DNA of 39,486 nt from Methanobrevibacter sp. (GCA_030539795.1 JAUNXN010000003.1:1-39486); one strand, 5' to 3'; shown: positions 13,102-26,804, counted from the stretch's first letter. Notes: a model not told the origin generated them from the letters alone. Made by a program: numbers and translations.

Positions 13102-13123
13102 TTATTTAATTATCTCCTTTTTT
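13095..13123. terminator. Palindromic terminator shared by two abutting convergent genes
   Basis: Perfect 10-bp inverted repeat GAGATAATTA (13095-13104) / TAATTATCTC (13107-13116) with a two-base spacer, then a T-tract at 13118-13123. The acyltransferase stop (13099-13101) and the hydrolase stop (13102-13104, minus) are adjacent within the 5' arm. Only the plus-strand side has a strong T-tract. Confidence 0.72.
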
Positions 13124-13956
13124 ATTTCTTTGAATGCACTTCTTGCTTCAGGTATCGGAAACAGAGGATAAATGTGGAACAGTCCACTGCCTATTACAAG
13201 TTTTACATTGACACCATCTTTTTTTAGAGTTTCAACATATTTTTCAATGTCCTTACAGAAAATTTCATTTTCACCCACGAATATTAATGTATCAGGCAAG
13301 TCAGCATTATCACCAAAAAGAGGGCTTACCCTATAGTCTTGGGTGTCCAAGTCACCTGCCCATGATTTTCCAATTTCCTTAAGGCCAATTTCACCTAAAA
13401 TAGGATCATTTTTACTGTCATAAGGAGGATTGCTCATGGAAATATCAACCCATGGGGAAAAGGTTATTGTTTTATCGGGCTGAGGCATATCAACCGTTTT
13501 TAGATATTGGCAAAAGGAGTAAACGAATCCTCCGCCTGCTGAGTCGCCCATTACAATCAAATTATTTTTCACAACCAATGTCTTATACAATTCAGCAATC
13601 ACATCAAAAGTTTGCATCGCTTTGCTTGAAGGAGCGAGTGGGTAAACTGGTGCAAGTACATGGGCGTTTAATTTTCGTGATAGCAAAAAGCAATATAGTA
13701 AATGTTGATAATTTATTTCACCAACAAAAGCTCCGCCATGTATGTATAAAATAGTGTTTTCAGCATTTTCATCCCCAAAAGTAAAGACTTCAGTTCCATT
13801 GAAATCCATGCTTTTGAAAATGCTTCGGGGAGGTTCATTTTGTGAGGTATTCTTTAAAAAATCATCTACTTTTTCCTTTGAATCCATGTAATCGGGTTTA
13901 GTGAACCTCAAAATGGCCTCTTCCACTTTTGCGATGAATGATTTGTTGCCAGACAT
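13102..13956 (-). CDS. Alpha/beta hydrolase, hormone-sensitive lipase-like esterase
   Basis: A 284-residue hydrolase (numbering below counts from an upstream ATG at 13971, five residues earlier). It has the HGGAF oxyanion motif (78-82), nucleophile S144 in GDSAGGG, an acidic residue E236 in GENEIF where family members usually have Asp, and H266 in LFHIYPL. This is the HSL/GDXG esterase group. I prefer the start at 13956 because AGGTAAT precedes it at a good distance. The ATG at 13971 overlaps the MATE stop by one base but has no ribosome binding site. It is the third gene of the NRPS operon. It could trim or release an ester or acyl intermediate, protect the host, or be unrelated. No signal peptide, so probably cytoplasmic. 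Confidence 0.82.
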   Translation of the reverse strand: MSGNKSFIAKVEEAILRFTKPDYMDSKEKVDDFLKNTSQNEPPRSIFKSMDFNGTEVFTFGDENAENTILYIHGGAFVGEINYQHLLYCFLLSRKLNAHVLAPVYPLAPSSKAMQTFDVIAELYKTLVVKNNLIVMGDSAGGGFVYSFCQYLKTVDMPQPDKTITFSPWVDISMSNPPYDSKNDPILGEIGLKEIGKSWAGDLDTQDYRVSPLFGDNADLPDTLIFVGENEIFCKDIEKYVETLKKDGVNVKLVIGSGLFHIYPLFPIPEARSAFKEIKKEIIK

Positions 13957-13970
13957 GAATATTACCTGCA

Positions 13971-15701
13971 TTAGCTATTTTTAATAGTAATTACTGTACT
14001 GTTCAAACCCAATACTCTTGAATAATCAATCTTATAGGCAATTTTATTTAAAACGCTGATGTTATCAAATTCAAAATCAGGATTTTCAATTACCGGATTG
14101 AAATCAATTCCAGTATCTTTAATGGATATCAATATGTTCTCAACATTATCCCTAACGATAACATCGATTGTGTCGACTGTTTCATTATTGTTGATTATAT
14201 TTACAAGCATCTCTTCAATAGCCATGCTGACCAATGCCGCTGATTTATTTCCGGACAGATATTCCTGAACGTCACGTGACAAGCTGACCGCTTCATCAAC
14301 ATTCCCATTTATTGTATGCTCAAATACGGCCTCATCATCATTATGCTTGTTAATGAAGAAACCTGAGTATTCACCATCAGTTTTCCTGTTAATATATTTT
14401 GAATAAGCGAAAATAAACAATATTGTTAATAGTTCAGCTATTGCAAATGAAATCCAAATTCCATTTCCACCAATTGCATGGGAAAGTATGAATGCTGCTG
14501 AAATAGGCAATACAAAACCTTCAAGCAAGGAAATGATTGTGGACAACTGATTTTTTTGAATCGCCTGAGCATAAAATGTATATAGGAATGTAATGGCGGT
14601 TCCAACATAACTTATTGCAAATATCCTTAATGCATTCAATACAACCGGAACATCCGCAGGGTTTTTAACGCTGTAGAGGAACAGCAAAGCTTGAGGATAA
14701 ACTATGAACAGAACGGATAGAGCCAAACTTGAAGCAACAACAATCTTTAAGGACCTCTTGATAATGTAATTAACTCCTGAATAGTCCTCTTCCTTAAAGT
14801 ATACGGAAACAATTGGAGACATTGTCTGTGCGGTTCCGATTAGGAAAATGTACAATATGAATAGGCTGTTATAGCATATACCAAATGCGACAACACCGGA
14901 TTTTCCAACATAAATCCCGACTAAAAAGTTTATTACAAGCAATTTTAAGGTCAAGTACAATTGTGTTGATGCTGATGAAAATCCTGAAGTTACAATCTTT
15001 TTAAGGAAATTAAAGAAAGCATTAACTTTCAATTTAATAAATTCCAAAGTACGTTCTTTTTTAAGGAAGTAATATGAAATCAGAATTGAACCGACCAGAT
15101 ATCCTGTTGAAGTAGCTAATGCCGCACCTGAAAGCCCCATTCCAAAAAAGTGAATATAAATTACATCACAGCAGATGTTAACAATATTGGCTATCAATAT
15201 TGCCCTGAACGGCAATGTTGGAATACCGTCCGCCCTTATAAAATAGGACAAACTCATCATATAACATAAGAAAGGCATTCCTATTATCAATGTTGAAAAA
15301 TAGCTGGATACATCAGAAACTAATTCAGGCTGTGAAGCGCATAAAAACTGTGCAATGCTTCCTGAAAAGACCAATCCGAAAACCGTAATCAATATTCCAA
15401 TTGATATAAGCGAAATAATTGATACTGAAAAATAACTGTTGCTCTTTTCCTCATCAAATTCTGCCTTAGCAACAGAGCACAATACACTGCCGCCCAATCC
15501 AATCATCCAGTAAATGAGATTGACAAATGTGATTACCGGCGCAACAATTTGGATTGGAGCAAGATTGCTTGCACCAATCAGAAAACTTACAATCAATCCA
15601 TCCACGAATAAACAGATATTCCCTGCCATAGATGTGAATAACGTTGGCAGGAAAAATTCTGCGAATTTACTTCTTAGTAGTTCATAATTCCTTTCATACA
15701 T
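13971..15701 (-). CDS. MATE efflux transporter fused to a C-terminal RsbW-like ATPase domain
   Basis: A 576-residue protein. Residues 1-440 form a complete 12-helix MATE exporter of the NorM/DinF type. Residues about 455-576 are soluble and resemble a GHKL/RsbW-type kinase domain: N-box IEEMLVNIINN (495-505) with E497 and N501, and G1 box KDTGIDFNP (528-536). These match the free-standing kinase of the divergent operon (LEEIFVNIVEY, IDNGIEFNP). The glycine-rich ATP-lid box present in the free-standing protein (GGLGIFL) is missing here; the aligned segment reads DNISVLNKIAY. The domain may thus bind partners rather than phosphorylate. The gene starts 9 bases after the NRPS stop with AGAGGT as ribosome binding site, so it is almost surely co-transcribed. 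Likely role: export of the NRPS product, gated through the C-terminal domain (inference). Confidence 0.88.
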   Translation of the reverse strand: MYERNYELLRSKFAEFFLPTLFTSMAGNICLFVDGLIVSFLIGASNLAPIQIVAPVITFVNLIYWMIGLGGSVLCSVAKAEFDEEKSNSYFSVSIISLISIGILITVFGLVFSGSIAQFLCASQPELVSDVSSYFSTLIIGMPFLCYMMSLSYFIRADGIPTLPFRAILIANIVNICCDVIYIHFFGMGLSGAALATSTGYLVGSILISYYFLKKERTLEFIKLKVNAFFNFLKKIVTSGFSSASTQLYLTLKLLVINFLVGIYVGKSGVVAFGICYNSLFILYIFLIGTAQTMSPIVSVYFKEEDYSGVNYIIKRSLKIVVASSLALSVLFIVYPQALLFLYSVKNPADVPVVLNALRIFAISYVGTAITFLYTFYAQAIQKNQLSTIISLLEGFVLPISAAFILSHAIGGNGIWISFAIAELLTILFIFAYSKYINRKTDGEYSGFFINKHNDDEAVFEHTINGNVDEAVSLSRDVQEYLSGNKSAALVSMAIEEMLVNIINNNETVDTIDVIVRDNVENILISIKDTGIDFNPVIENPDFEFDNISVLNKIAYKIDYSRVLGLNSTVITIKNS

Positions 15702-15710
15702 TGTTTACCT

Positions 15711-18700
15711 CTAAATACTAAAGAAATCTAACTCATCCAAATATTTAACAAAATTATATATGTACTCTTCTGAAACGAATGGCCATTTAATGCCTAAACG
15801 ATATAATGCCTGAATGGTATATGTATTGTCAACAGGCATCCAAATCTTCTTAACTTTTCCTGAACCGATTGAAGTGATGAGCCCTGATACACCTTCCTGT
15901 TTTGATTTATCGGCAAGCGCATCATCCAAAGCGTTTTCATAATCATCCTCTTCGGCAGGTTCAATATCCAATCCTAAAGGTTTGATAATATCAATTATAT
16001 CTCCAAAGCTTATGCTGTGATAATCATATGGATGGAAAACTGTACAGTCCTTAGGAGTTTTTGAAAGATTTATAATAGCCTTTGCAGTAATGTCAATCGG
16101 TGAAAACTCCACATTGGCCATCAGCATTGAATAAGGCATTTTTCCAATTGTTACAAATGCTTTTAAACGATTGATGAAGCCGTTTGATTCGAAATTGATT
16201 TGGAATTCACTGTCTGAGCTTCTTGCCATCAGGTTTCCGACTCTCATGATCTTTACATCCAAATCATCATTAACGGCGGCTTCCAATACTGCACGTTCTG
16301 CCAGGAATTTGGAATTGAGATATTGGTTGTCTACCGCCTGGCCGATGAACAAGTCTTTTTCTGTGAATTTCACGTCGACAGGAGGGAAATTGTTTATACT
16401 TTCACCGGCGATACTGTATGTGGATACCTGGACATATTTTGCATCCTTCATTTTTGCAAATTTAAGTCCGTTTATTACACCGCCAAGGTTAATGTCTTCG
16501 ATGTCTGTTCCGGATGAGAAGTGTTTTACGTTAGCCGCACAGTTAACTACTGCATCGATATTTTCAGATACAAGTTTTTCAAAGTCTTCGAAGTTAGTGA
16601 TGTCCCCTTCAATAATATGCAATCTCTCGCCGAACATCTCTGAATAATCGTTTGAGAAGTAATAGAACAGCAATGATTTTAATCTTTCCTCACCGCTTAA
16701 TACTTTATTGCCTCTGATGAAACAGTAAACATCCCCAGTTTCATTTTCAAGAATTTCATGAAGCACATGTATTCCTAAAAATCCTGTAGCTCCCGTGAGT
16801 AGAATATTGCCTAAACTGTCTTGGAGTTCTCCGCCAATAATGTTTTCAAGAGTATTTTTCTTGAGGAGCGCATTGATTTTAGAGTAGTCATAGGACATTT
16901 CGGTCTTTTTCTCCAATGTTTCATCAGACAAAATGAACTCTGACAATGCTCTTGGAGTCGGATTTGAGAAAACATCACCATAGCTTAAATTATAATTCCT
17001 GTTTAAAGCTTCCATAGTGATTTTGGTAACCAGGAGTGATGTTCCACCAATTTCAAAGAAATTATCGGTGCCGCTCACTTCATCAAGCCCTAAAATTTCT
17101 GCAAATAGGTTTGCGAAGAAAGCCTCAATGTCATTTTCAGGAGCAACATATTCTGTTACCAATACAGGTTCAGGCAAGTTTCTCAAGTCTGTTTTGCCGT
17201 TTGCGGTTTGAGGCATTTCATCAAGTTCCATATAGACGGTTGGAACCATGTAATAAACTAATTTTTCAGCAAGTGAAGCTTTTAACTCATCAATGTTTAT
17301 GGAATATCCGTTTTCTTCACGATTTTCATCTTTGTATTCATCATGAACAGTGAAGTAAGCGCATAAATGGTCATTTCCCTTAATTTTCTTAACTACTACA
17401 GCTACTGATTTGATTCCAGGGAATTTTGAAAGACCGACTTCAATTTCGCCTATTTCAATTCTTAAACCTCTGAGCTTGATTTGGTTATCCATTCTTCCGA
17501 ATACATAATAGTCGCCGTCTTCAGTGACTTTGACAAAGTCCCCGGAACGGTAGAACCTGATTCCATTAATCATCTCATAGGCTTCGGCATTTTTCTCAGG
17601 ACGGTTCAGGTATTCCCTTGAAACACCTTTTCCTGCAATGTATAACTCCCCAATGACATTTGGAGGCAGAGGATTGGAATCGAAATCCATGACCTTCTCA
17701 TGAACATTGAACAATTCTTTTCCTATATGGATATCTGAGCTTTCCAGTTGTTGGCCGTTACAATAAACTGTAGTTTCAGTTGGCCCATACATGTTAAAGA
17801 ATTTTCCATTGGAGTTTTCGGAAAGCAATTCATATAATCTTGCGGAAAATGGTTCTCCGGCATGAATATATACCTTAAATCCGTACATTGTTTCCTGCAT
17901 CGCTTCAATTTCCAAATATTGCAGCAAACGTGAAGGTGTGGCAATGTAAACATTTGCTCCGGACCTGTGAATTAAGTCCATCATTTCAATTGGGTCCTTG
18001 TATTCAGTATCGTTGGCGAATACCATAGGGACTCCATTCAGTAATGATCCCATCAACTCCTGCTGGAATACGTCGAAAGCGACTGTTGTGGTGGACAATA
18101 CCTTATAATCCTCTTTTTCAAGATTGTGAACCAATTCATATGTACAGACGTTTCTAGGGTCAGGATATACGAAGTTGGCAATGTTTCCATGCTCAAGGAT
18201 TACTCCTTTAGGAAGTCCTGTTGAACCTGAAGTGTATATGAGATATGCCATATTGTTTGCATGCACATCAGGATCAGGATTTGATGTGTCCTCCTCTTTC
18301 AGCAATTCATTGACATCCAATAAATTATCTTTGTATTCTGATAGATCAATGCCCTTTTTCTCAATTACATCATCCACAATGATGAATTTTGATTCACTGT
18401 CAGTTAAAACATGTTCAATCCTTTCAGAAGGATATTCTGAGTCGACTGGAATAAATGCCGCACCCGCTTTCAAAATACCAAATACTGATGCCATTACATT
18501 ACTGTCCCTATTCAATATGAACATTATCCTATCTTCAGGGCCGACACCTTTTTTAATAAGGCTATGGGCAATCCTATTGGCCTTTTCATTTAACTCTGAA
18601 TAGGTGAATTCGCCGTCAGTGGCATACAGAATAACCCTGTCAGGATGCATTTCAACCTGATTCTCAAATATCTTATTTAATCTGTCTTCAGGAATTTCAT

Positions 18701-21700
18701 CGTATTCCAAATCATCGACACCCCAATCATCGTTTTCAATGATTGAAATATCCTTCATCAATGTATCATCACCCAATGACTGGAATTTATTTAAGACTAT
18801 TTTAATGCAGTCAAGGAAAGTGTTGATTAGGGTTTCAGAGTACAGCCGGTCGTTGTATTCACAGAAAATTCTGTATTGGTTATCGACTTCAACCACATTA
18901 ATGTTGATTTTGAATTTCAGTCCCTCATAGTCAATTGATTGCCTTTCAACATTCATTCCGCCAATTTCAATGTCTTCGATGATTTTTCCGTGATAAGCGT
19001 ATAATATTTCAGGAGTGATGTCGAATTGATTTGAAATTTCAGTTAAAGGATATGATGAATAGGCCAATACATTCAACCATTCTGAATTAACATATTCCAG
19101 GTATTCCTTAAGATTGGAATCGGAATTTAATTTCAGTGCCAATGGCAATGTTTTAACCATCATGGCTATTGTCTTTTGCTGATTCGGATTGAATCTTCCA
19201 TTTGTGATTGTTGCAATCAGTATATTGCGGTTATAGACAAATTTATTTAAAACAAATGAAGTTGCCGCCAAGAACAAGTTATTCTGAGAGATGCTGGATT
19301 TTGAACAGAATTCATCAATAGATTCCTTATCCAGGAAAATGTCTTCCATTGCAGCATTGCCCTCTGATTCGTCGCCGTTAATGTCCTGTGCAATTAATGT
19401 TGCATCATCAAATTCCTTGATTTTATTTGAAAAGAATAATTCTGCTTCCTTGTATAAACTGGATTGTTCTGTCTTGATTTCATTCAGGGAGTATTCGAAA
19501 CCGTCAAGTTCTTCCAGTTCATAATCTTTACCGTCATAGATTTTTGCGATTTCATCGAATAGAATGTTCAGGGAGGTTCCATCGACGATTATATGGTGGA
19601 AGTCCGCAAGCAACATTGAATTGCCGACTATTTTAAATCTGAACAATGGGCCTTCATCAAGTTTGAATGGCTTTACAAACTCTTCCAAATTAACCTCATC
19701 GACAATCTCGATTAAATCATCAACTTTCAGACTGTCCCTTCTTTCCTGGCAAACCTCACCATTTTCCATTACTATCCTTGTTTTTAAATAAGGATGATTA
19801 TCAATGGCTTTGATGATTGATGATTTGAGTTTATCCGCATCAATGCCTTCGCTGAATTCCATTTTCTTTGGAAGGTTATATGCAGTATTTTCAGGATCTT
19901 TAATGCAGTCAAAGTAAACTCCCAATTGATTTGAAGTTAACGGATACAATTCTTGAACATCGGCTGAACTCTCATCATCTTGCCTAATTTCAGAAGCTAT
20001 TTTTTCAATGGTTTTATAATTCAATATTTCTGTAACGTTCAATTGAGCATTCAAATTATTGTAAATTGCTGATGTTAACTTAATGACTGACAGGGAAGTC
20101 AATCCTATGCTGAATAAATCCGTATTAACACCAAATTCCTCGATATTTAAAATTTCAGAGACTATGTTGAATAATTCCTGTTCAAGTTCAGTTCTTGGCT
20201 TTATAAACTCATCAATATCGATTTCAGGGTCAGGCAAGTTTTTAAAGTCTGTCTTGCCGTTCGGTGTTTTTGGGAATTCATCCAATTGTGTGAAATAGGA
20301 CGGAACCATATATTCAGGAATTGAATCAATCAGATGCTGCTTTAAATCATCAATGTCAATATCGGTTACTGCTGTGAAATAAGCGCACAGATGTTCGATT
20401 GAGTTGATCTTTTTAACAACGACCTTTGAAATGCTGATGTTTTCATAATTTGCAATTGCCCCTTCAATTTCGGACAATTCTATCCTCAAACCTCTAAGCT
20501 TGATTTGAGTATCGTTTCTTCCGTGAACATATAACTCGCCGTTTGCGTCTTTTTTACCCAAATCCCCTGTATTATAATATGGAATATCATTTAAAGTCAA
20601 AAAGACCTTTTGAGTTTGTTCTTCATTATTCAGATAACCTCTAGCAATTCCTGCACCACCCACATAGATTTCACCAGGCACATAAGGAGGCAGTTGATTT
20701 CCATCGATATCCATTATCTTATCAACCACATTGAGCATTTTCCAACCTGCAGTGACTTCTGGACTGTCAATCAACTTGTAATGTGATGCAATTGTTACTT
20801 CTGTTGGACCATAGGAGTTGTAAATATCTGCATCGGTGTATTTTGACAATCTATCATATAATACCGGAGGGAAACCTTCCCCACCTACAATAATCACGTT
20901 GCAGTTTCCAACAACCTCCTGGATTTCTTCAAGCTGCAAGTATTCAAGCAATCTTGTCGGTGTTGAACCGAATCCTTCAGCATCGGTCTTTTTGAATAAC
21001 TCAACCAATTCCAATGGGTCAATGGATTGTTCATCATTGGCAAATACAACAGGCAATCCATTGAGTATAGTACCGAATATCTCTCTTAAAAATACGATGA
21101 AGGATACTGTTGAAATTGAAATGAACTTGTTGCATTTGTGGTTTAGCTCATAAATCGGAACATTTTCCTCGACATTGGCAATATAGTTGGATATTCCCCT
21201 GTGTGTAATCATTACGCCTTTTGGTTTTCCTGTTGAACCTGAAGTGTAAATCAGGAAACATAAATTATCCGGAGTCAACTCGATTTCAGGATTTGAGTCA
21301 TCTTCACAAGCCAGCAATTCATCCACATCGATTCTATTGTCACCGTCATAATCTATTTCGGAGCTTGTTATGACAAATTTGGAGTCACTGTCATCAAGAA
21401 TTTGATTAATTCTATTTATAGGGTAATTCGGATCGATTGGGATAAATGCAGCTCCTGCCTTAACAATACCTAATACTGCAGCTATCAAATCACTATTCCT
21501 TCTCATCATGAACATGATCCTGTCTTCAATGTTCACTCCTCTTTTGATTAATGAATTGGCAATCCTATTTGCTTTTTTGTTTAAATCATCATATGTGAGC
21601 TCGCCATCTTCAGCTATGAGTATTGTCTTTTGTGGATTCTGAGCGGATATCTCTTCAAATATCTTGCTGATGACACCCTCATTTGCAAGCTCAATTTTGA

Positions 21701-23528
21701 AGTCCTCATCATACTCAAGTTCCCTTCTGATTGAAATATCCTTTAGCAAATCATCGCCTGAAGCAAACTTATCCAATAAAACATCGATTGAATCCAAGAA
21801 AGTTTCAATTAACTCTTTTGAGTAAAATGATTCATCATAAGAAATGTTTATGTTTCCGCTTTCATAATTAAATATAAATTTGTAGTCCTTAGTGTCATAC
21901 TCATCTGTGAAAAACAAGATTTCACTTTCAAAATCCAATTTTCTATTGTTTAACAATGGATAATTTGAATAATGCTTGAAAGACTTTTTGAAATCGTTTA
22001 AATATTTGTTAACAGAGAGATTTGTGTCAAAATGATATCCGCAAGCCTGTTTATTATATGCTATCAAAATATCTTTTGAAAACGAGAATTTTGTTAAATT
22101 AAACAAGAATGCAGACAGCAATATTCTCTCTTTGGACAAATGATATTGGTTTGATAAATTCTTTAGTTTATCTTCGCCGATCGGTTTTGAAATATCTGTA
22201 AAATTGATTTTGTCCCCATTGATATCTGGAGAGATTGCAGTTGAATTTTCAAAGGAATTTATCAGGTTATTATAGTAATTTTCAGCATTGAAGAAATCAA
22301 CCACATCAACATCATAATCCTTGCATTTTTTAGAAGAATCATCAATTACTTGCCTTACCAGGTCTTTTAGCCCATTTGCCATTGAAGCTATCTCATTATA
22401 GCTAAAGCAAGATTTGTCATATTCAATGAATAATGATTGCAATCCGTTTTTATCTGAGTAATTTTTATTTATCCTAAAGTGTAATGGGAATTTGATATCT
22501 TTTTGAAGTGTTAGGAATTTTGAATTATAGTCTGTTGAATTGGATACAATAGAAATCATTGAAATGCAATCAGGATCAATATTTTCATTTCTTAAGTCAG
22601 TGGTGTATTCGCTGAACTGCAATTTTGCATGGGACAATCCTTCTTTTAGAACTGACTTGGAATATGATAACAATTCATCAAAAGTCAATTCTTCATCATA
22701 GGTCAATCTTAATGGAATCGTATTTACAAACATTCCCAATGCATCATCCTGTCCGAAGTATCTTCCATGAACTGAAGTATTCATTACAAGGTCACTGAAC
22801 AGTTTATTGTCTTTTTTGGACTTTGCAAAGTATAAAAAGTCGAGTGCGAGTGCAGTTACGAACGGGGAATAATCGAATTTTGGAATCTGATCTAAAAGCA
22901 CTTCATAATAACCAAGTTCAGATTTATCAAACGAATACCAGTCCTGAGCATAATCCTTTAGATTATCCAACCAATACCGTTTGTCTTCACTAGCTTCAGA
23001 AGATGCCAAATAATCCAATTCGTCATTAACATAGGTTTCATACGAATAATCCCTTGGAACATATTCTTCATTATTTTTTACACAATCAAGACACTTCTGA
23101 ATTTCCATAGGAATTAAGGAAAACAATGAAGTACCATCCAATAATATATGTTGTACAACACCGATAAGCACTGTTGATGATTCTGTTTTCAATATTGCCC
23201 ATTTATACAATGGAGAATCAAAAACATCCTCAAAAGGTTTGTCTAAATAATCAACAATGAATTCATCAATATTTTCATTGGCAACTTCAAATGATTCAAT
23301 GTTTACATCAAAATCATCATAATACTGTTTGAAATCACCATTTTCATCATATTTAATTTTTAAATTCAAATAATTTTTAGAAATAATCTCTATCGCACTT
23401 TTTACATCTTCAAAATCTTTCAAATCATAATCCTTTCTAAATTTAAGATAAAAAGAGTCATTATTTGGATTGTTAATCTCCGAAAATAATAACATCTTTT
23501 GACAGGAGGATAACTTAAAATTTCCCAT
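15711..23528 (-). CDS. Two-module nonribosomal peptide synthetase with terminal reductase
   Basis: A 2605-residue NRPS. Domains: condensation C1 (1-405; QHILLDG at 126-132, catalytic H127 retained); a second C-terminal lobe of a condensation domain without its active-site half (about 420-602); adenylation A1 (620-1110; YTSGSTGKPKG about 762, NSYGPTE 904-910); thiolation T1 (Ser1145 in GLTSL); C2 (about 1190-1600; HHIIVDG 1311-1317); A2 (1615-2110; YTSGSTGLPKG about 1764, NMYGPTE from 1912); T2 (Ser2164 in GGTSL); and a thioester reductase (2235-2605; GATGFLG 2246-2252, Y2403-xxx-K2407). Predicted product: a dipeptide or acyl-peptide released as aldehyde or alcohol. In A1 the position equivalent to GrsA Asp235 is Ile811; A2 has the normal Asp1819. 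A perfect AGGAGGT lies 8 bases before the ATG. Substrates are not predicted. Confidence 0.95.
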   Translation of the reverse strand: MGNFKLSSCQKMLLFSEINNPNNDSFYLKFRKDYDLKDFEDVKSAIEIISKNYLNLKIKYDENGDFKQYYDDFDVNIESFEVANENIDEFIVDYLDKPFEDVFDSPLYKWAILKTESSTVLIGVVQHILLDGTSLFSLIPMEIQKCLDCVKNNEEYVPRDYSYETYVNDELDYLASSEASEDKRYWLDNLKDYAQDWYSFDKSELGYYEVLLDQIPKFDYSPFVTALALDFLYFAKSKKDNKLFSDLVMNTSVHGRYFGQDDALGMFVNTIPLRLTYDEELTFDELLSYSKSVLKEGLSHAKLQFSEYTTDLRNENIDPDCISMISIVSNSTDYNSKFLTLQKDIKFPLHFRINKNYSDKNGLQSLFIEYDKSCFSYNEIASMANGLKDLVRQVIDDSSKKCKDYDVDVVDFFNAENYYNNLINSFENSTAISPDINGDKINFTDISKPIGEDKLKNLSNQYHLSKERILLSAFLFNLTKFSFSKDILIAYNKQACGYHFDTNLSVNKYLNDFKKSFKHYSNYPLLNNRKLDFESEILFFTDEYDTKDYKFIFNYESGNINISYDESFYSKELIETFLDSIDVLLDKFASGDDLLKDISIRRELEYDEDFKIELANEGVISKIFEEISAQNPQKTILIAEDGELTYDDLNKKANRIANSLIKRGVNIEDRIMFMMRRNSDLIAAVLGIVKAGAAFIPIDPNYPINRINQILDDSDSKFVITSSEIDYDGDNRIDVDELLACEDDSNPEIELTPDNLCFLIYTSGSTGKPKGVMITHRGISNYIANVEENVPIYELNHKCNKFISISTVSFIVFLREIFGTILNGLPVVFANDEQSIDPLELVELFKKTDAEGFGSTPTRLLEYLQLEEIQEVVGNCNVIIVGGEGFPPVLYDRLSKYTDADIYNSYGPTEVTIASHYKLIDSPEVTAGWKMLNVVDKIMDIDGNQLPPYVPGEIYVGGAGIARGYLNNEEQTQKVFLTLNDIPYYNTGDLGKKDANGELYVHGRNDTQIKLRGLRIELSEIEGAIANYENISISKVVVKKINSIEHLCAYFTAVTDIDIDDLKQHLIDSIPEYMVPSYFTQLDEFPKTPNGKTDFKNLPDPEIDIDEFIKPRTELEQELFNIVSEILNIEEFGVNTDLFSIGLTSLSVIKLTSAIYNNLNAQLNVTEILNYKTIEKIASEIRQDDESSADVQELYPLTSNQLGVYFDCIKDPENTAYNLPKKMEFSEGIDADKLKSSIIKAIDNHPYLKTRIVMENGEVCQERRDSLKVDDLIEIVDEVNLEEFVKPFKLDEGPLFRFKIVGNSMLLADFHHIIVDGTSLNILFDEIAKIYDGKDYELEELDGFEYSLNEIKTEQSSLYKEAELFFSNKIKEFDDATLIAQDINGDESEGNAAMEDIFLDKESIDEFCSKSSISQNNLFLAATSFVLNKFVYNRNILIATITNGRFNPNQQKTIAMMVKTLPLALKLNSDSNLKEYLEYVNSEWLNVLAYSSYPLTEISNQFDITPEILYAYHGKIIEDIEIGGMNVERQSIDYEGLKFKININVVEVDNQYRIFCEYNDRLYSETLINTFLDCIKIVLNKFQSLGDDTLMKDISIIENDDWGVDDLEYDEIPEDRLNKIFENQVEMHPDRVILYATDGEFTYSELNEKANRIAHSLIKKGVGPEDRIMFILNRDSNVMASVFGILKAGAAFIPVDSEYPSERIEHVLTDSESKFIIVDDVIEKKGIDLSEYKDNLLDVNELLKEEDTSNPDPDVHANNMAYLIYTSGSTGLPKGVILEHGNIANFVYPDPRNVCTYELVHNLEKEDYKVLSTTTVAFDVFQQELMGSLLNGVPMVFANDTEYKDPIEMMDLIHRSGANVYIATPSRLLQYLEIEAMQETMYGFKVYIHAGEPFSARLYELLSENSNGKFFNMYGPTETTVYCNGQQLESSDIHIGKELFNVHEKVMDFDSNPLPPNVIGELYIAGKGVSREYLNRPEKNAEAYEMINGIRFYRSGDFVKVTEDGDYYVFGRMDNQIKLRGLRIEIGEIEVGLSKFPGIKSVAVVVKKIKGNDHLCAYFTVHDEYKDENREENGYSINIDELKASLAEKLVYYMVPTVYMELDEMPQTANGKTDLRNLPEPVLVTEYVAPENDIEAFFANLFAEILGLDEVSGTDNFFEIGGTSLLVTKITMEALNRNYNLSYGDVFSNPTPRALSEFILSDETLEKKTEMSYDYSKINALLKKNTLENIIGGELQDSLGNILLTGATGFLGIHVLHEILENETGDVYCFIRGNKVLSGEERLKSLLFYYFSNDYSEMFGERLHIIEGDITNFEDFEKLVSENIDAVVNCAANVKHFSSGTDIEDINLGGVINGLKFAKMKDAKYVQVSTYSIAGESINNFPPVDVKFTEKDLFIGQAVDNQYLNSKFLAERAVLEAAVNDDLDVKIMRVGNLMARSSDSEFQINFESNGFINRLKAFVTIGKMPYSMLMANVEFSPIDITAKAIINLSKTPKDCTVFHPYDYHSISFGDIIDIIKPLGLDIEPAEEDDYENALDDALADKSKQEGVSGLITSIGSGKVKKIWMPVDNTYTIQALYRLGIKWPFVSEEYIYNFVKYLDELDFFSI

Positions 23529-23536
23529 AAAACATA

Positions 23537-23543
23537 ACCTCCT
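23537..23543 (-). promoter_or_regulatory. Strong Shine-Dalgarno of the NRPS gene
   Basis: The minus strand reads AGGAGGT, a full match to the anti-Shine-Dalgarno sequence, with 8 bases before the NRPS ATG. It is much stronger than the GGTG-type sites of most genes here and fixes the start codon. Confidence 0.8.
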
Positions 23544-23544
23544 T

Positions 23545-23612
23545 CTATTTCAATATAAGTTATCTATATTAAACAAAATATATAAAATTAATAAATTAAA
23601 TAAAATTAATTA
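23545..23612. promoter_or_regulatory. Divergent promoter region between the NRPS operon and the STAS operon
   Basis: A very AT-rich stretch that must hold promoters for both operons. A plus-strand TATA candidate is ATATATAAA near 23577-23585, and a minus-strand candidate is TTAATATA, complement of about 23566-23573. AATATA-AGTTATC-TATATT (23552-23570) forms an imperfect dyad between them that could be an operator. The assignment is by position and composition only. Confidence 0.5.
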
Positions 23613-23621
23613 GTGATTGAA

Positions 23622-23921
23622 ATGGATATCATAAAAAAATATAATGAAAAAGAATTAACAATTGAAGTTAAAGACCGCATTGATACAGTGACTGCCCCTG
23701 ATTTTGAAAATGAAATATTGGATGAAATGGGCAAATTCGATTCATTGATTATTGACTTCACTAATTTAGAGTACATTTCAAGTGCGGGATTACGTGTTTT
23801 GATTGCAACTCAAAAAAAATTGAAACCGGAAAACATACCAATGACCATTATTAACGTTAACGACACAATTAATGAAATATTCAGAATGTCCGGTTTTGAT
23901 AAAATCTTAAAGATAGAATGA
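23622..23921 (+). CDS. STAS-domain protein, anti-sigma-factor-antagonist type (RsbV/SpoIIAA-like)
   Basis: A 99-residue single STAS domain. The conserved core DFTNLEYISSAGLRVLIA (45-62) contains the serine pair (53-54) in which the phosphorylated serine of RsbV/SpoIIAA proteins lies, so the switch site appears intact. In bacteria the unphosphorylated form binds an RsbW-type kinase and frees its target. Phosphorylation by that kinase and dephosphorylation by a PP2C/SpoIIE phosphatase reset it, and both partners are encoded immediately downstream. The frame can be read from a GTG at 23613, but that GTGATT fits better as the ribosome binding site of the ATG at 23622. First gene of a four-gene coupled operon. 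Archaea have no sigma factor, so the final target must be something else. Confidence 0.9.
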   Translation: MDIIKKYNEKELTIEVKDRIDTVTAPDFENEILDEMGKFDSLIIDFTNLEYISSAGLRVLIATQKKLKPENIPMTIINVNDTINEIFRMSGFDKILKIE

Positions 23922-24295
23922 ACTCAATTTCATTAAAACCCGAATTAAAGGAATTATACACCTTAAACGAGTTTATTTTAAATGAACTTCCAGAAGAAAA
24001 CATCCAGGTTAATTTAATTTTGGAAGAAATTTTTGTCAATATCGTGGAATATTCGAAAGCTGACTATATAAAGGTCAATGCTGAATTCGAAACCCCAATA
24101 TTGACCATAGAATTTATTGACAATGGAATTGAATTTAATCCTCTTTTAAAAGATGATCCTGAAGCTCCCACAACAATTGATGATGCTCAAATAGGTGGGC
24201 TCGGAATTTTCTTAACAAAAGAAATGGCAGATGAACTTGAATACCAATATGTAAATAATGAGAATCATTTAAAAATAATCAAAAAAGTGGAATAA
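23918..24295 (+). CDS. RsbW-like serine kinase / anti-sigma-type ATPase
   Basis: A 125-residue GHKL ATPase-fold protein of the RsbW/SpoIIAB type. It has N-box LEEIFVNIVEY (36-46) with E37 and N41, G1 box IDNGIEFNP (67-75), and G2 box GGLGIFL (93-99). All ATP-binding boxes are present, so it is likely an active kinase for the adjacent STAS protein. It starts within the STAS stop codon (ATGA, 4-base overlap), which enforces near-equal synthesis, as expected for binding partners. The C-terminal ATPase domain of the MATE exporter across the promoter is a homologue lacking the G2 box. In bacteria the free kinase sequesters a sigma factor. Here the target is unknown; candidates are the exporter domain or the phosphatase. 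Confidence 0.88.
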   Translation: MNSISLKPELKELYTLNEFILNELPEENIQVNLILEEIFVNIVEYSKADYIKVNAEFETPILTIEFIDNGIEFNPLLKDDPEAPTTIDDAQIGGLGIFLTKEMADELEYQYVNNENHLKIIKKVE

Positions 24296-26166
24296 TGAAA
24301 ACCAAACTAAAACAAATATTAGTCCCATTCTTATCAATGATAATAATTAACTTTATATTATATTCAGATTTCTTTCTTGAATTAGGAATAGAAAGTCCTT
24401 ATGTCGGATTGCTATTTGTTTTTGGTTTATTATTCGGACCATATGGTGCTCTAGGTGCCGTGCTTGGAAATATAGTAATAGATTATATTGGCGGATTTAC
24501 ACCCCTTGAAATACTTCCTTCAGCTATTTTTAGTTTTGGTGTTTCCTGTTTGACATATAAACTTTGGTATTCCGGTTTTAAAACAGACAAAATCACAAAA
24601 CCAAAATTGGATAATATTTACCATCTTAGCCTATTTTTATCAATCATGATAATATGCGGCATCATCTATTCGGCAATTCATGGAAAGTTAGTTGGTCTTA
24701 TAATTAGTACTGATATAATTGACTTTTTCACCCCTTCCTATTTTTTAAACTTTGTTAATGGGGCATTTATTTTTGGAATAGTGAGCCTTTTCATTTCGGA
24801 TAAAATTGATTTTATACATACTCCTAAAACAACAAAAAAAGCCTTTAACAGAAAATTATATCGGATATTATTTTATTTATTGCTCATCAGCGGAATAATC
24901 GCATTCATCACATCTGAATTTGATATGGGGAAAAATTTCATAATTGGGGAAATAATAGTGCTTGGAATTTTATTATTTGCCTACCTGACAAAACCATTTG
25001 AATATGAAATACAACCAAATGATGAAAACACCATGATTGAAAGCATTATGAGGAATTTTCTCATAGTAACCTTAGCCCTTGCTATTTTGGGGATATTGGT
25101 TTCTATTTTTAGTTATAAATATGTGGCCAGTTTGGATGCTAATATCTTCATCACCCTACTACCTTTACTTATCATAACTGATGTGTTTATAATATTGTTC
25201 TTTATTCCAGGAATGATTATTTTCCGATACATTGAACAAAAACTGATCAAACCTATTTCATCATTTTCAAAAATTGAAAACTTCATTAATGAAAATGAAA
25301 AAATCGAAGCAGAAGGATTGCTTGACATTTATTCTAAATATGTTAATGAAAAAAATGAAATCGGAACTCTTGCTAGGTCATATTCCAAATTAATCGAGCA
25401 TAACAACAATTATATTGAGAATATCCGTGAAATTGAAAGTGAAAAAGAGCGCGTTAATGCCGAACTTGACATTGCGACTAAGATTCAGGCGGCAGCCCTT
25501 CCAACTGAAGCGCTTGAAACTGATGAATTTATTGTTAATGGTTATTCACATCCTGCAAAAGAGGTTGGAGGAGACTTTTTTGATTATTATATGATAGATG
25601 ATGATAATTTGGCCATTGTAATCGGTGATGCATCAGGAAAAGGTGTTCCTGCGGCAATTCTTGCAATGATCACTCAGGTCATAATTAAACAATTGATTAA
25701 ACATGAAACCGATCCGTCCAAAGTATTATGCTCTTTAAATAACCAAATAAGCGCGAATAATTCTGAATCTATGTTCATTACAATATGGCTTGGAATATAT
25801 AATAAATCAAGTAAAAAAATCATATTTTCAAATGCAGGACATAATCCCCCATTAATAAAGGAAAATGGAGAATTTAAATATTTGGATATTGAAACAGGGC
25901 TTGTTTTAGGAATTATGGAAGACTTTGGCTATGTAAAAGAAGAAATTACATTAACCAATGAATTAGTACTCTACACTGATGGAATAACTGATGCCAATAA
26001 TAATCGCAACGAAATGTATGGCGAAGATAGGTTATTGAAATTCTTTAATGAATTTAAAAGCGATGAAGGTCCAATTATTCCTTTGTTAAATGACATTTCC
26101 GAATTTACTGAAGATGCCGAACAATATGATGACATGACCCTCCTCTATCTAAAGGATAAAACATGA
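24295..26166 (+). CDS. Membrane-bound SpoIIE/RsbU-type serine phosphatase
   Basis: A 623-residue sensor phosphatase. Residues 1-310 contain about nine transmembrane helices, including a glycine-rich pair (FGLLFGPYGALGAVLGNIVI) unlike standard sensor domains I can name. A HAMP-like linker (310-365) and a coiled-coil (370-400) follow, then a PP2C-type SpoIIE domain (about 390-623): GGDFFDY (425-431), GDASGKG (444-450), NAGHNPPL, LYTDGITDA and QYDDMTLL (610-617). The metal-binding aspartates D427, D445 and D613 are in place, so it should be active. It would dephosphorylate the STAS protein in response to a membrane or extracellular signal. It starts in the kinase stop codon (TAATG) and overlaps the phosphopantetheinyl transferase by 4 bases. 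Confidence 0.9.
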   Translation: MKTKLKQILVPFLSMIIINFILYSDFFLELGIESPYVGLLFVFGLLFGPYGALGAVLGNIVIDYIGGFTPLEILPSAIFSFGVSCLTYKLWYSGFKTDKITKPKLDNIYHLSLFLSIMIICGIIYSAIHGKLVGLIISTDIIDFFTPSYFLNFVNGAFIFGIVSLFISDKIDFIHTPKTTKKAFNRKLYRILFYLLLISGIIAFITSEFDMGKNFIIGEIIVLGILLFAYLTKPFEYEIQPNDENTMIESIMRNFLIVTLALAILGILVSIFSYKYVASLDANIFITLLPLLIITDVFIILFFIPGMIIFRYIEQKLIKPISSFSKIENFINENEKIEAEGLLDIYSKYVNEKNEIGTLARSYSKLIEHNNNYIENIREIESEKERVNAELDIATKIQAAALPTEALETDEFIVNGYSHPAKEVGGDFFDYYMIDDDNLAIVIGDASGKGVPAAILAMITQVIIKQLIKHETDPSKVLCSLNNQISANNSESMFITIWLGIYNKSSKKIIFSNAGHNPPLIKENGEFKYLDIETGLVLGIMEDFGYVKEEITLTNELVLYTDGITDANNNRNEMYGEDRLLKFFNEFKSDEGPIIPLLNDISEFTEDAEQYDDMTLLYLKDKT

Positions 26167-26804
26167 TTAAAATAGCTTATTGCAATGTAGAAAGCTTGGA
26201 TTTGAAGAAAGCCTACGACTTAGTTTCTCAAAACCGCAAGGAAAAAATAGATTTTTACAGGTTTGAAAAGGATAAAAAACTAAGTGCAGGAGCTTATCTC
26301 CTTTTAAAAAAATTACTTGAAGAAGAAGACATCACAAAACCTGCTTTTAAAACTGAAAAATATGGAAAGGCATACATATCCAATTATGACAACATTCATT
26401 TTAATTTAAGCCATTCCAACAGGATAGTTTTATGTGCAATATCAGACATGGCCATTGGAGTCGACGTTGAATATATTGATGCTGAAATTGATTTGAGCAT
26501 AGCCAAACATTATTTCTACAACAGTGAATATGAAACCATCATGAAATCCAAGAATCCCTCAGACGAATTTTTCAATTATTGGGTTTTGAAAGAAAGTTAC
26601 ATGAAATATACTGGACTTGGAATGAATTTGGAATTAGATAACTTTGAAATAATAATAAAAGATAAAATCCGCCTTAAAAATGATAATGAAAATTTAAAAT
26701 TCAACTTATTTGACATTGAAAACTACAAAATCGGAATAGTCGGCAATTATGATGTGCATGATTTAATCGAGTATGATGTTGAGGAACTATATCCCAAAGT
26801 TTAA
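26163..26804 (+). CDS. 4'-phosphopantetheinyl transferase, Sfp type
   Basis: A 213-residue Sfp-superfamily enzyme that transfers phosphopantetheine from CoA to the serine of carrier domains. It has the FNLSHS motif (80-85), the Mg-binding GVDVE (99-103, D101 and E103) and WVLKES (140-145, with K143 and E144). Length and motif spacing match Sfp-like enzymes rather than the short AcpS type. Its expected substrates are Ser1145 and Ser2164 of the neighbouring NRPS, since archaea have no fatty-acid synthase needing such a modification. It is the last gene of the STAS-kinase-phosphatase operon (4-base ATGA overlap), so NRPS activation is produced together with the signalling module. AT-rich hairpin and T-runs follow at 26807-26840. 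Confidence 0.92.
   Translation: MIKIAYCNVESLDLKKAYDLVSQNRKEKIDFYRFEKDKKLSAGAYLLLKKLLEEEDITKPAFKTEKYGKAYISNYDNIHFNLSHSNRIVLCAISDMAIGVDVEYIDAEIDLSIAKHYFYNSEYETIMKSKNPSDEFFNYWVLKESYMKYTGLGMNLELDNFEIIIKDKIRLKNDNENLKFNLFDIENYKIGIVGNYDVHDLIEYDVEELYPKV

Follow-up and report, generated by a model that had tools for sequence, protein, structure and literature searches.

The window, i.e. the whole stretch of 39,486 nt of Methanobrevibacter DNA analyzed here, encodes what we read, with a probability of roughly 0.6, as a partner switch of bacterial type in which an exporter has taken the place of the sigma factor as output, and which would gate the export of the product of a non-ribosomal peptide synthetase (NRPS) or, in related loci, of GH3 amide synthetases. 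The best candidate for the target of the switch is the C-terminal domain of the MATE exporter. Since the trio of STAS protein, kinase and SpoIIE phosphatase is encoded beside enzymes of peptide synthesis and an exporter bearing a disabled copy of its kinase, what the switch controls is probably product release and not transcription. In bacteria, trios of this type usually govern a sigma factor; archaea are not known to possess one. If true, this reading would show an anti-sigma switch working without sigma factors, the sigma-binding fold having been shifted onto a transporter. It would also help to learn when NRPS products are released by the methanogens of rumen and gut.

The genes form two divergent operons, whose starts are 84-93 bp apart (Table 1). 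On the plus strand, the genes for STAS, kinase, membrane SpoIIE and phosphopantetheinyl transferase (PPTase) constitute one operon with overlaps of 1-4 nt between neighbors; on the minus strand, a gap of 9 nt separates NRPS and MATE. The initial annotation had described two tightly packed operons facing each other. The tight packing and the composition of the plus strand operon hold, the latter with the families as claimed, but the operons lie back to back. For STAS an alternative GTG start exists at 23613 (23613-23921, +); the ATG at 23622 is more likely, because most homologues begin at that methionine. That the DNA comes from a methanogen is shown by McrA-glycine thioamidation YcaO and TfuA equivalogs encoded on the same contig (29531-31394). 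A reading as a defence system was dropped, as a PADLOC search gave nothing convincing.

Table 1. Features of the two divergent operons and their surroundings in the window
Feature	Position	Strand	Evidence
Abhydrolase_3 hydrolase, flanking gene, probably outside the module	13102..13971	-	synteny
MATE exporter	13971..15701	-	MatE Pfam 3.5e-23
Pseudo-ATPase (pseudo-anti-sigma) domain, residues about 440-576 of MATE	13971..14384	-	profile, fold, motif loss
NRPS	15711..23528	-	Pfam and NCBIfam domains
Divergent intergenic region (93 bp with the ATG start of STAS), presumed shared promoter	23529..23621	.	sequence; function inferred
STAS, anti-sigma-factor-antagonist type	23622..23921	+	TIGR00377 67.8 bits (above cut-off), PF01740 6.5e-16
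RsbW/SpoIIAB-type serine kinase	23918..24295	+	PF13581 2.7e-15
Membrane SpoIIE/PPM phosphatase	24295..26166	+	PF07228 7.7e-45
4'-Phosphopantetheinyl transferase (PPTase, Sfp type)	26163..26804	+	PF01648 1.1e-14

All switch elements were found to be intact, as had been proposed. The phosphosite motif of the window STAS is ISSAGL, and ISS[AS] is kept in all aligned STAS proteins. The window kinase possesses the boxes EEIFVN (N), DNGIEF (G1) and GGLGI (G2), which are intact in 35/35 free kinases, and the metal aspartates D427/D445/D562/D613 of the PPM phosphatase are invariant among seven aligned SpoIIE proteins. Thus, the module has a STAS protein with a phosphorylatable serine, a GHKL kinase with N/G1/G2 boxes and a PPM phosphatase with metal aspartates, while no cognate sigma factor as output was detected in the genome. 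The N-terminus of SpoIIE is a multi-TM sensor with a HAMP-like stretch (model pLDDT 86), whose fold gave no significant match in the PDB. The sensor region (24295-25464) weakly resembles RibU/ThiT (RibU: TM 0.61 to target, E 2.2) and one homologue matches the ECF riboflavin S-component (ECF-ribofla_trS, 8.7e-5). As a lead, the first TM part of the sensor is perhaps ECF-S-like. The PPTase is predicted to activate the NRPS carrier domains.

A search for Sigma70_r2 in the window's genome (80% complete) did not yield a match, which supports the earlier claim that the output is not a sigma factor. Among 62 genomes of the genus, each at least 80% complete and many of them MAGs, three had Sigma70_r2 matches above the cut-off and the other 59 had none. 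The one strong match among these (G096:C110:1754-1963), residing in a 689-aa ORF of a MAG without SpoIIE, is probably bacterial contamination.

The exporter contains two MatE repeats (PF01554 in two stretches) and scored below the cut-off of the subfamily TIGR00797 (127 versus 147 bits). Pfam disclosed only MatE in this protein and no match in its C-terminal domain. By hhalign, however, the last 137 residues matched the profile of the free kinases over the whole domain (97.8%, E 1e-12). In a Foldseek comparison with the PDB, the AF2 model of the domain (mean pLDDT 80.2) gave SpoIIAB, UsfX and RsbW as best matches, the top chains stemming from the complexes SpoIIAB-sigmaF, UsfX-RsfB and RsbV-RsbW (1l0o, 1.8e-5; 8ih8; 6m37). 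The domain thus has the anti-sigma GHKL fold, but is devoid of the G2 box/ATP lid. This box is deleted in 31/31 MATE-I and 5/5 MATE-II domains, and GGLG is missing in 4/4 MATEs of GH3 operons and altogether in all 40 MATE fusions scored. In MATE-I, 30/31 domains retain the N-box Glu, and the same count holds for the N-box Asn and for the G1 Asp. In MATE-II the N-box is lost as well, and this domain may therefore bind differently. With a dN/dS of 0.068, similar to that of the transporter part (0.082), the C-terminal domain is maintained by purifying selection. Owing to the loss of the ATP lid, we ruled out that it acts as a second active kinase. Of the initial proposal that the exporter carries a homologous kinase-like domain, the SpoIIAB/RsbW fold and the role as best candidate target were retained, whereas the domain is too degenerate for an equal second kinase. 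From these motifs we infer a lidless, non-phosphorylating, pseudokinase-like docking domain.

In the crystal structure of the B. subtilis RsbV-RsbW complex, RsbW Glu49 contacts the phosphosite Ser56 of RsbV, and an RsbW Arg binds RsbV Asp23 (PMC7340262). The counterpart of Glu49 is the N-box Glu kept by the MATE domain; for the Arg, a hand alignment showed no obvious conservation in the archaeal kinase or the MATE domain. We did not find a description of the exporter pseudo-anti-sigma domain in the literature searched, which consisted mainly of papers outside subscription journals. A tblastn search of PLSDB with two MATE fusions gave matches to the MATE core only, and the best match and two others that were inspected are unfused. 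At one locus (L195:13818-15553, G019), MATE and its C-terminal domain lie in two frames, by decay or by a sequencing error; SpoIIE and STAS are encoded near by, a kinase is absent there.

The initial proposal would have been refuted by a trio just as common away from NRPS and MATE genes, and the genome counts do not refute it. In the genus, SpoIIE was present in 44/44 genomes with condensation domains and in 5/18 without them, in the family (128 genomes) in 70/75 and 12/53 genomes, respectively (table 70/5/12/41), both comparisons being uncorrected for phylogeny. Of the five genus genomes that have SpoIIE but no condensation domains, two possess GH3 operons and a third a fragment of an NRPS reductase. 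Five genomes of the family possess NRPS but no SpoIIE (G007, G008, G025, G026 and G032). Within the genus, 38 of the 83 STAS genes have a MATE fusion at a distance of up to 10 kb, where about 2.4 are expected at random, and 14 have one within 500 bp (0.3 expected), phylogeny being ignored in both estimates. Of the 28 solo STAS genes, whose 12-kb surroundings contain no kinase and no SpoIIE, 11 likewise have a MATE fusion at most 10 kb away. Near 17 of the 83 STAS genes, none of the gene types searched was found.

The set of STAS, kinase, SpoIIE and MATE-pseudoATPase recurs in several genera, often in a single operon with NRPS. Operons of the order NRPS > MATE > STAS > kinase > SpoIIE exist in other genera (L175, L176, L177, L178 and L181), those of L176-L178 with the PPTase at the 5' end. 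Other arrangements are STAS > kinase > NRPS > MATE > PPTase > SpoIIE (L179) and MATE > STAS > PPTase > kinase > SpoIIE (L180), and with GH3 genes, STAS > GH3 > GH3 > MATE > kinase > SpoIIE (L187) and MATE > kinase > SpoIIE > STAS > GH3 > GH3 (L191). In the GH3 operons of the genus, the GH3 protein itself bears an intact HATPase_c_2 kinase domain as a fusion (L103:2479-4614, L107:13769-15904, L114:5331-7466 and L115:7737-9872), and unlike the MATE domains this one keeps G2 (4/4); here MATE > STAS > GH3-kinase faces tandem SpoIIE genes and NRPS is absent. Since NRPS and GH3 amide synthetases are swapped while STAS, kinase, SpoIIE and MATE stay, gene content suggests the exporter as the partner shared by all versions of the switch. 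The GH3-based versions show that the module is not NRPS-specific.

The initial annotation had regarded the circuit as the NRPS locus's own, which turned out not to be the case. At a chromosomal site between an acyltransferase/Abhydrolase_3 pair and M24/YcaO/TfuA, the STAS-kinase-SpoIIE-PPTase genes or parts of them occur without NRPS in at least 11 congeners, and NRPS-MATE is also found there in three loci (the window, L121 and L132), several of the compared loci being covered on one flank only. These four genes are better regarded as a shared genome-wide hub, because they usually reside at the site without NRPS. The union of the hub with NRPS-MATE in the window is secondary. The window STAS clusters with hub STAS proteins, apart from solo NRPS STAS proteins. 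The hydrolase, which had been assigned to the NRPS operon, was rejected as a member by synteny: together with the acyltransferase neighbor it occupies the site in genomes without NRPS there, so it probably belongs to the site and not to the module, and it is absent from most NRPS-MATE loci.

A block of approximately 10.4 kb comprising STAS, NRPS and MATE shows 99.3-99.7% nucleotide identity among the otherwise divergent genomes G039 (one contig), G045, G089 and G091, yet the kinases of G039, G045 and G091 share just 58-73% amino acid identity. As this near-identical block contains neither kinase nor phosphatase, the transferred unit consists of synthetase, exporter and STAS, joining a resident kinase/phosphatase. 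A search for inverted repeats at the ends of the block gave none exceeding 9 nt. The kinase/phosphatase/PPTase hub is probably shared by all NRPS-MATE-STAS units in the genome.

In the mechanism that we propose, a membrane signal, possibly a ligand, would activate SpoIIE, which would dephosphorylate STAS. Dephosphorylated STAS would then dock on the MATE pseudokinase domain and alter how the product of NRPS or GH3 is exported, opening and closing both being allowed, and the free kinase would reset the system by rephosphorylating STAS. Because the intact kinase is fused to the synthetase in the GH3 operons of the genus, STAS would there move back and forth between this enzyme and the exporter. 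A wider version, to which we give slightly less than even odds, is a general non-transcriptional archaeal switch, in which one kinase/phosphatase hub would work through several STAS messengers, each directed to its own MATE via the pseudo-anti-sigma domain, and would thereby couple NRPS/GH3 amide synthesis to gated export.

The switch might instead act on transcription of the NRPS operon through some archaeal transcription factor. This would fit the usual bacterial role of such trios and the 93-bp intergenic region common to the divergent operons, and it is how Leahy et al. (2010) interpret the genes, proposing regulation of the NRPS (PMC2812497). We regard it as unlikely, since no recurring DNA-binding protein was seen in the module, the genome is without a detectable sigma factor, and what recurs as an additional partner is the MATE domain. 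In another reading, control of synthesis would be direct, STAS or the kinase regulating the NRPS or the PPTase, or GH3 in the operons that have this enzyme instead. The intact HATPase domain on GH3 in four genomes and the PPTase within the hub operon would suit such a control, but the NRPS has no extra domain for binding, and it is the synthetases that are interchangeable whereas MATE, STAS, kinase and SpoIIE remain, which makes this explanation quite improbable.

We are still more doubtful that the MATE domain is a structural or dimerization element, or a decoy titrating STAS from the kinase, instead of a STAS receptor. Its degeneracy, including the missing N-box of MATE-II, and the occurrence of MATE fusions without SpoIIE in G007, whose domains (L190) are degenerate further still, would agree with this, but the repeated adjacency to STAS, the joint transfer and the strong purifying selection on the domain do not. 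That the genes are a laterally acquired bacterial cassette, functionless in the archaeon, is hardly credible: although Leahy et al. infer a possible bacterial origin (PMC2812497), the motifs are intact in all STAS proteins and kinases compared, the set is present in several genera and the dN/dS of MATE is low.

The export switch favored here resembles RsbU/RsbV/RsbW and SpoIIE/SpoIIAA/SpoIIAB in its STAS phosphoserine protein, GHKL serine kinase and PPM phosphatase, encoded here in an overlapping operon, and differs in having no detectable sigma factor and in the extra lidless anti-sigma fold carried by a transporter. Among known partner switches, the output of SypA/SypE, BtrUVW and RbaV is unknown or is not a sigma factor, one case being the control of secretion by Btr proteins (PMC8256260). 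These systems likewise use STAS as output component but are bacterial, whereas the candidate output here is a pseudo-anti-sigma domain on MATE beside NRPS/GH3. For M. ruminantium M1, the 2010 publication reports NRPS, anti-sigma antagonist, serine phosphatases and MatE as well as a separate STAS/PPTase/SpoIIE/kinase cluster (mru_0066-0071, mru_0513-0516; PMC2812497), confirming that a comparable gene set had been published. The two clusters, apart there, are joined in the window; the paper reads the genes as regulation of expression, and its passages on them that were consulted make no mention of an extra exporter domain (PMC2812497). Hence the gene set was already known, and new with respect to the literature searched is the pseudo-anti-sigma domain on the exporter.

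Some STAS genes have other neighbors. In six loci (L066, L070, L074, L075, L080 and L111) STAS occupies a conserved place, flanked by apparent topoisomerase VI genes on one side and by a P-type ATPase on the other; both families were checked in L111 only. The STAS genes of L066, L070, L074 and L075 are orphans, and MATE and tandem SpoIIE are sometimes added at such loci. In another genus of the family (L183:5710-9837), the order is STAS > TPP-dependent enzyme > SpoIIE > kinase with NRPS and MATE absent, which we take as another metabolic partner of the trio. A Lachnoclostridium MAG (L150:7809-11635) contains STAS > amidohydrolase > GH3, with a STAS resembling that of the archaeal GH3 operons; this locus is a possible bacterial source.

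The NRPS has the domain order C-A-T-C-A-T-R, from which reductive product release is predicted. Its best NCBIfam match, the AusA aureusimine NRPS (NF047350), scored 991 bits, below the cut-off of 2500 for this equivalog. Both enzymes have two modules and a terminal reductase, but the first domain of the window NRPS is a condensation domain, which would allow an N-acyl product. At residues about 805-825 (near 21070-21120, -), its first A domain reads SFIVFLREI, compared with AFDVFQQEL in the second, and thus has Ile where Asp usually binds the substrate amino group. The SFIVFLREI motif was found in most class-I NRPS checked, including those of other genera.
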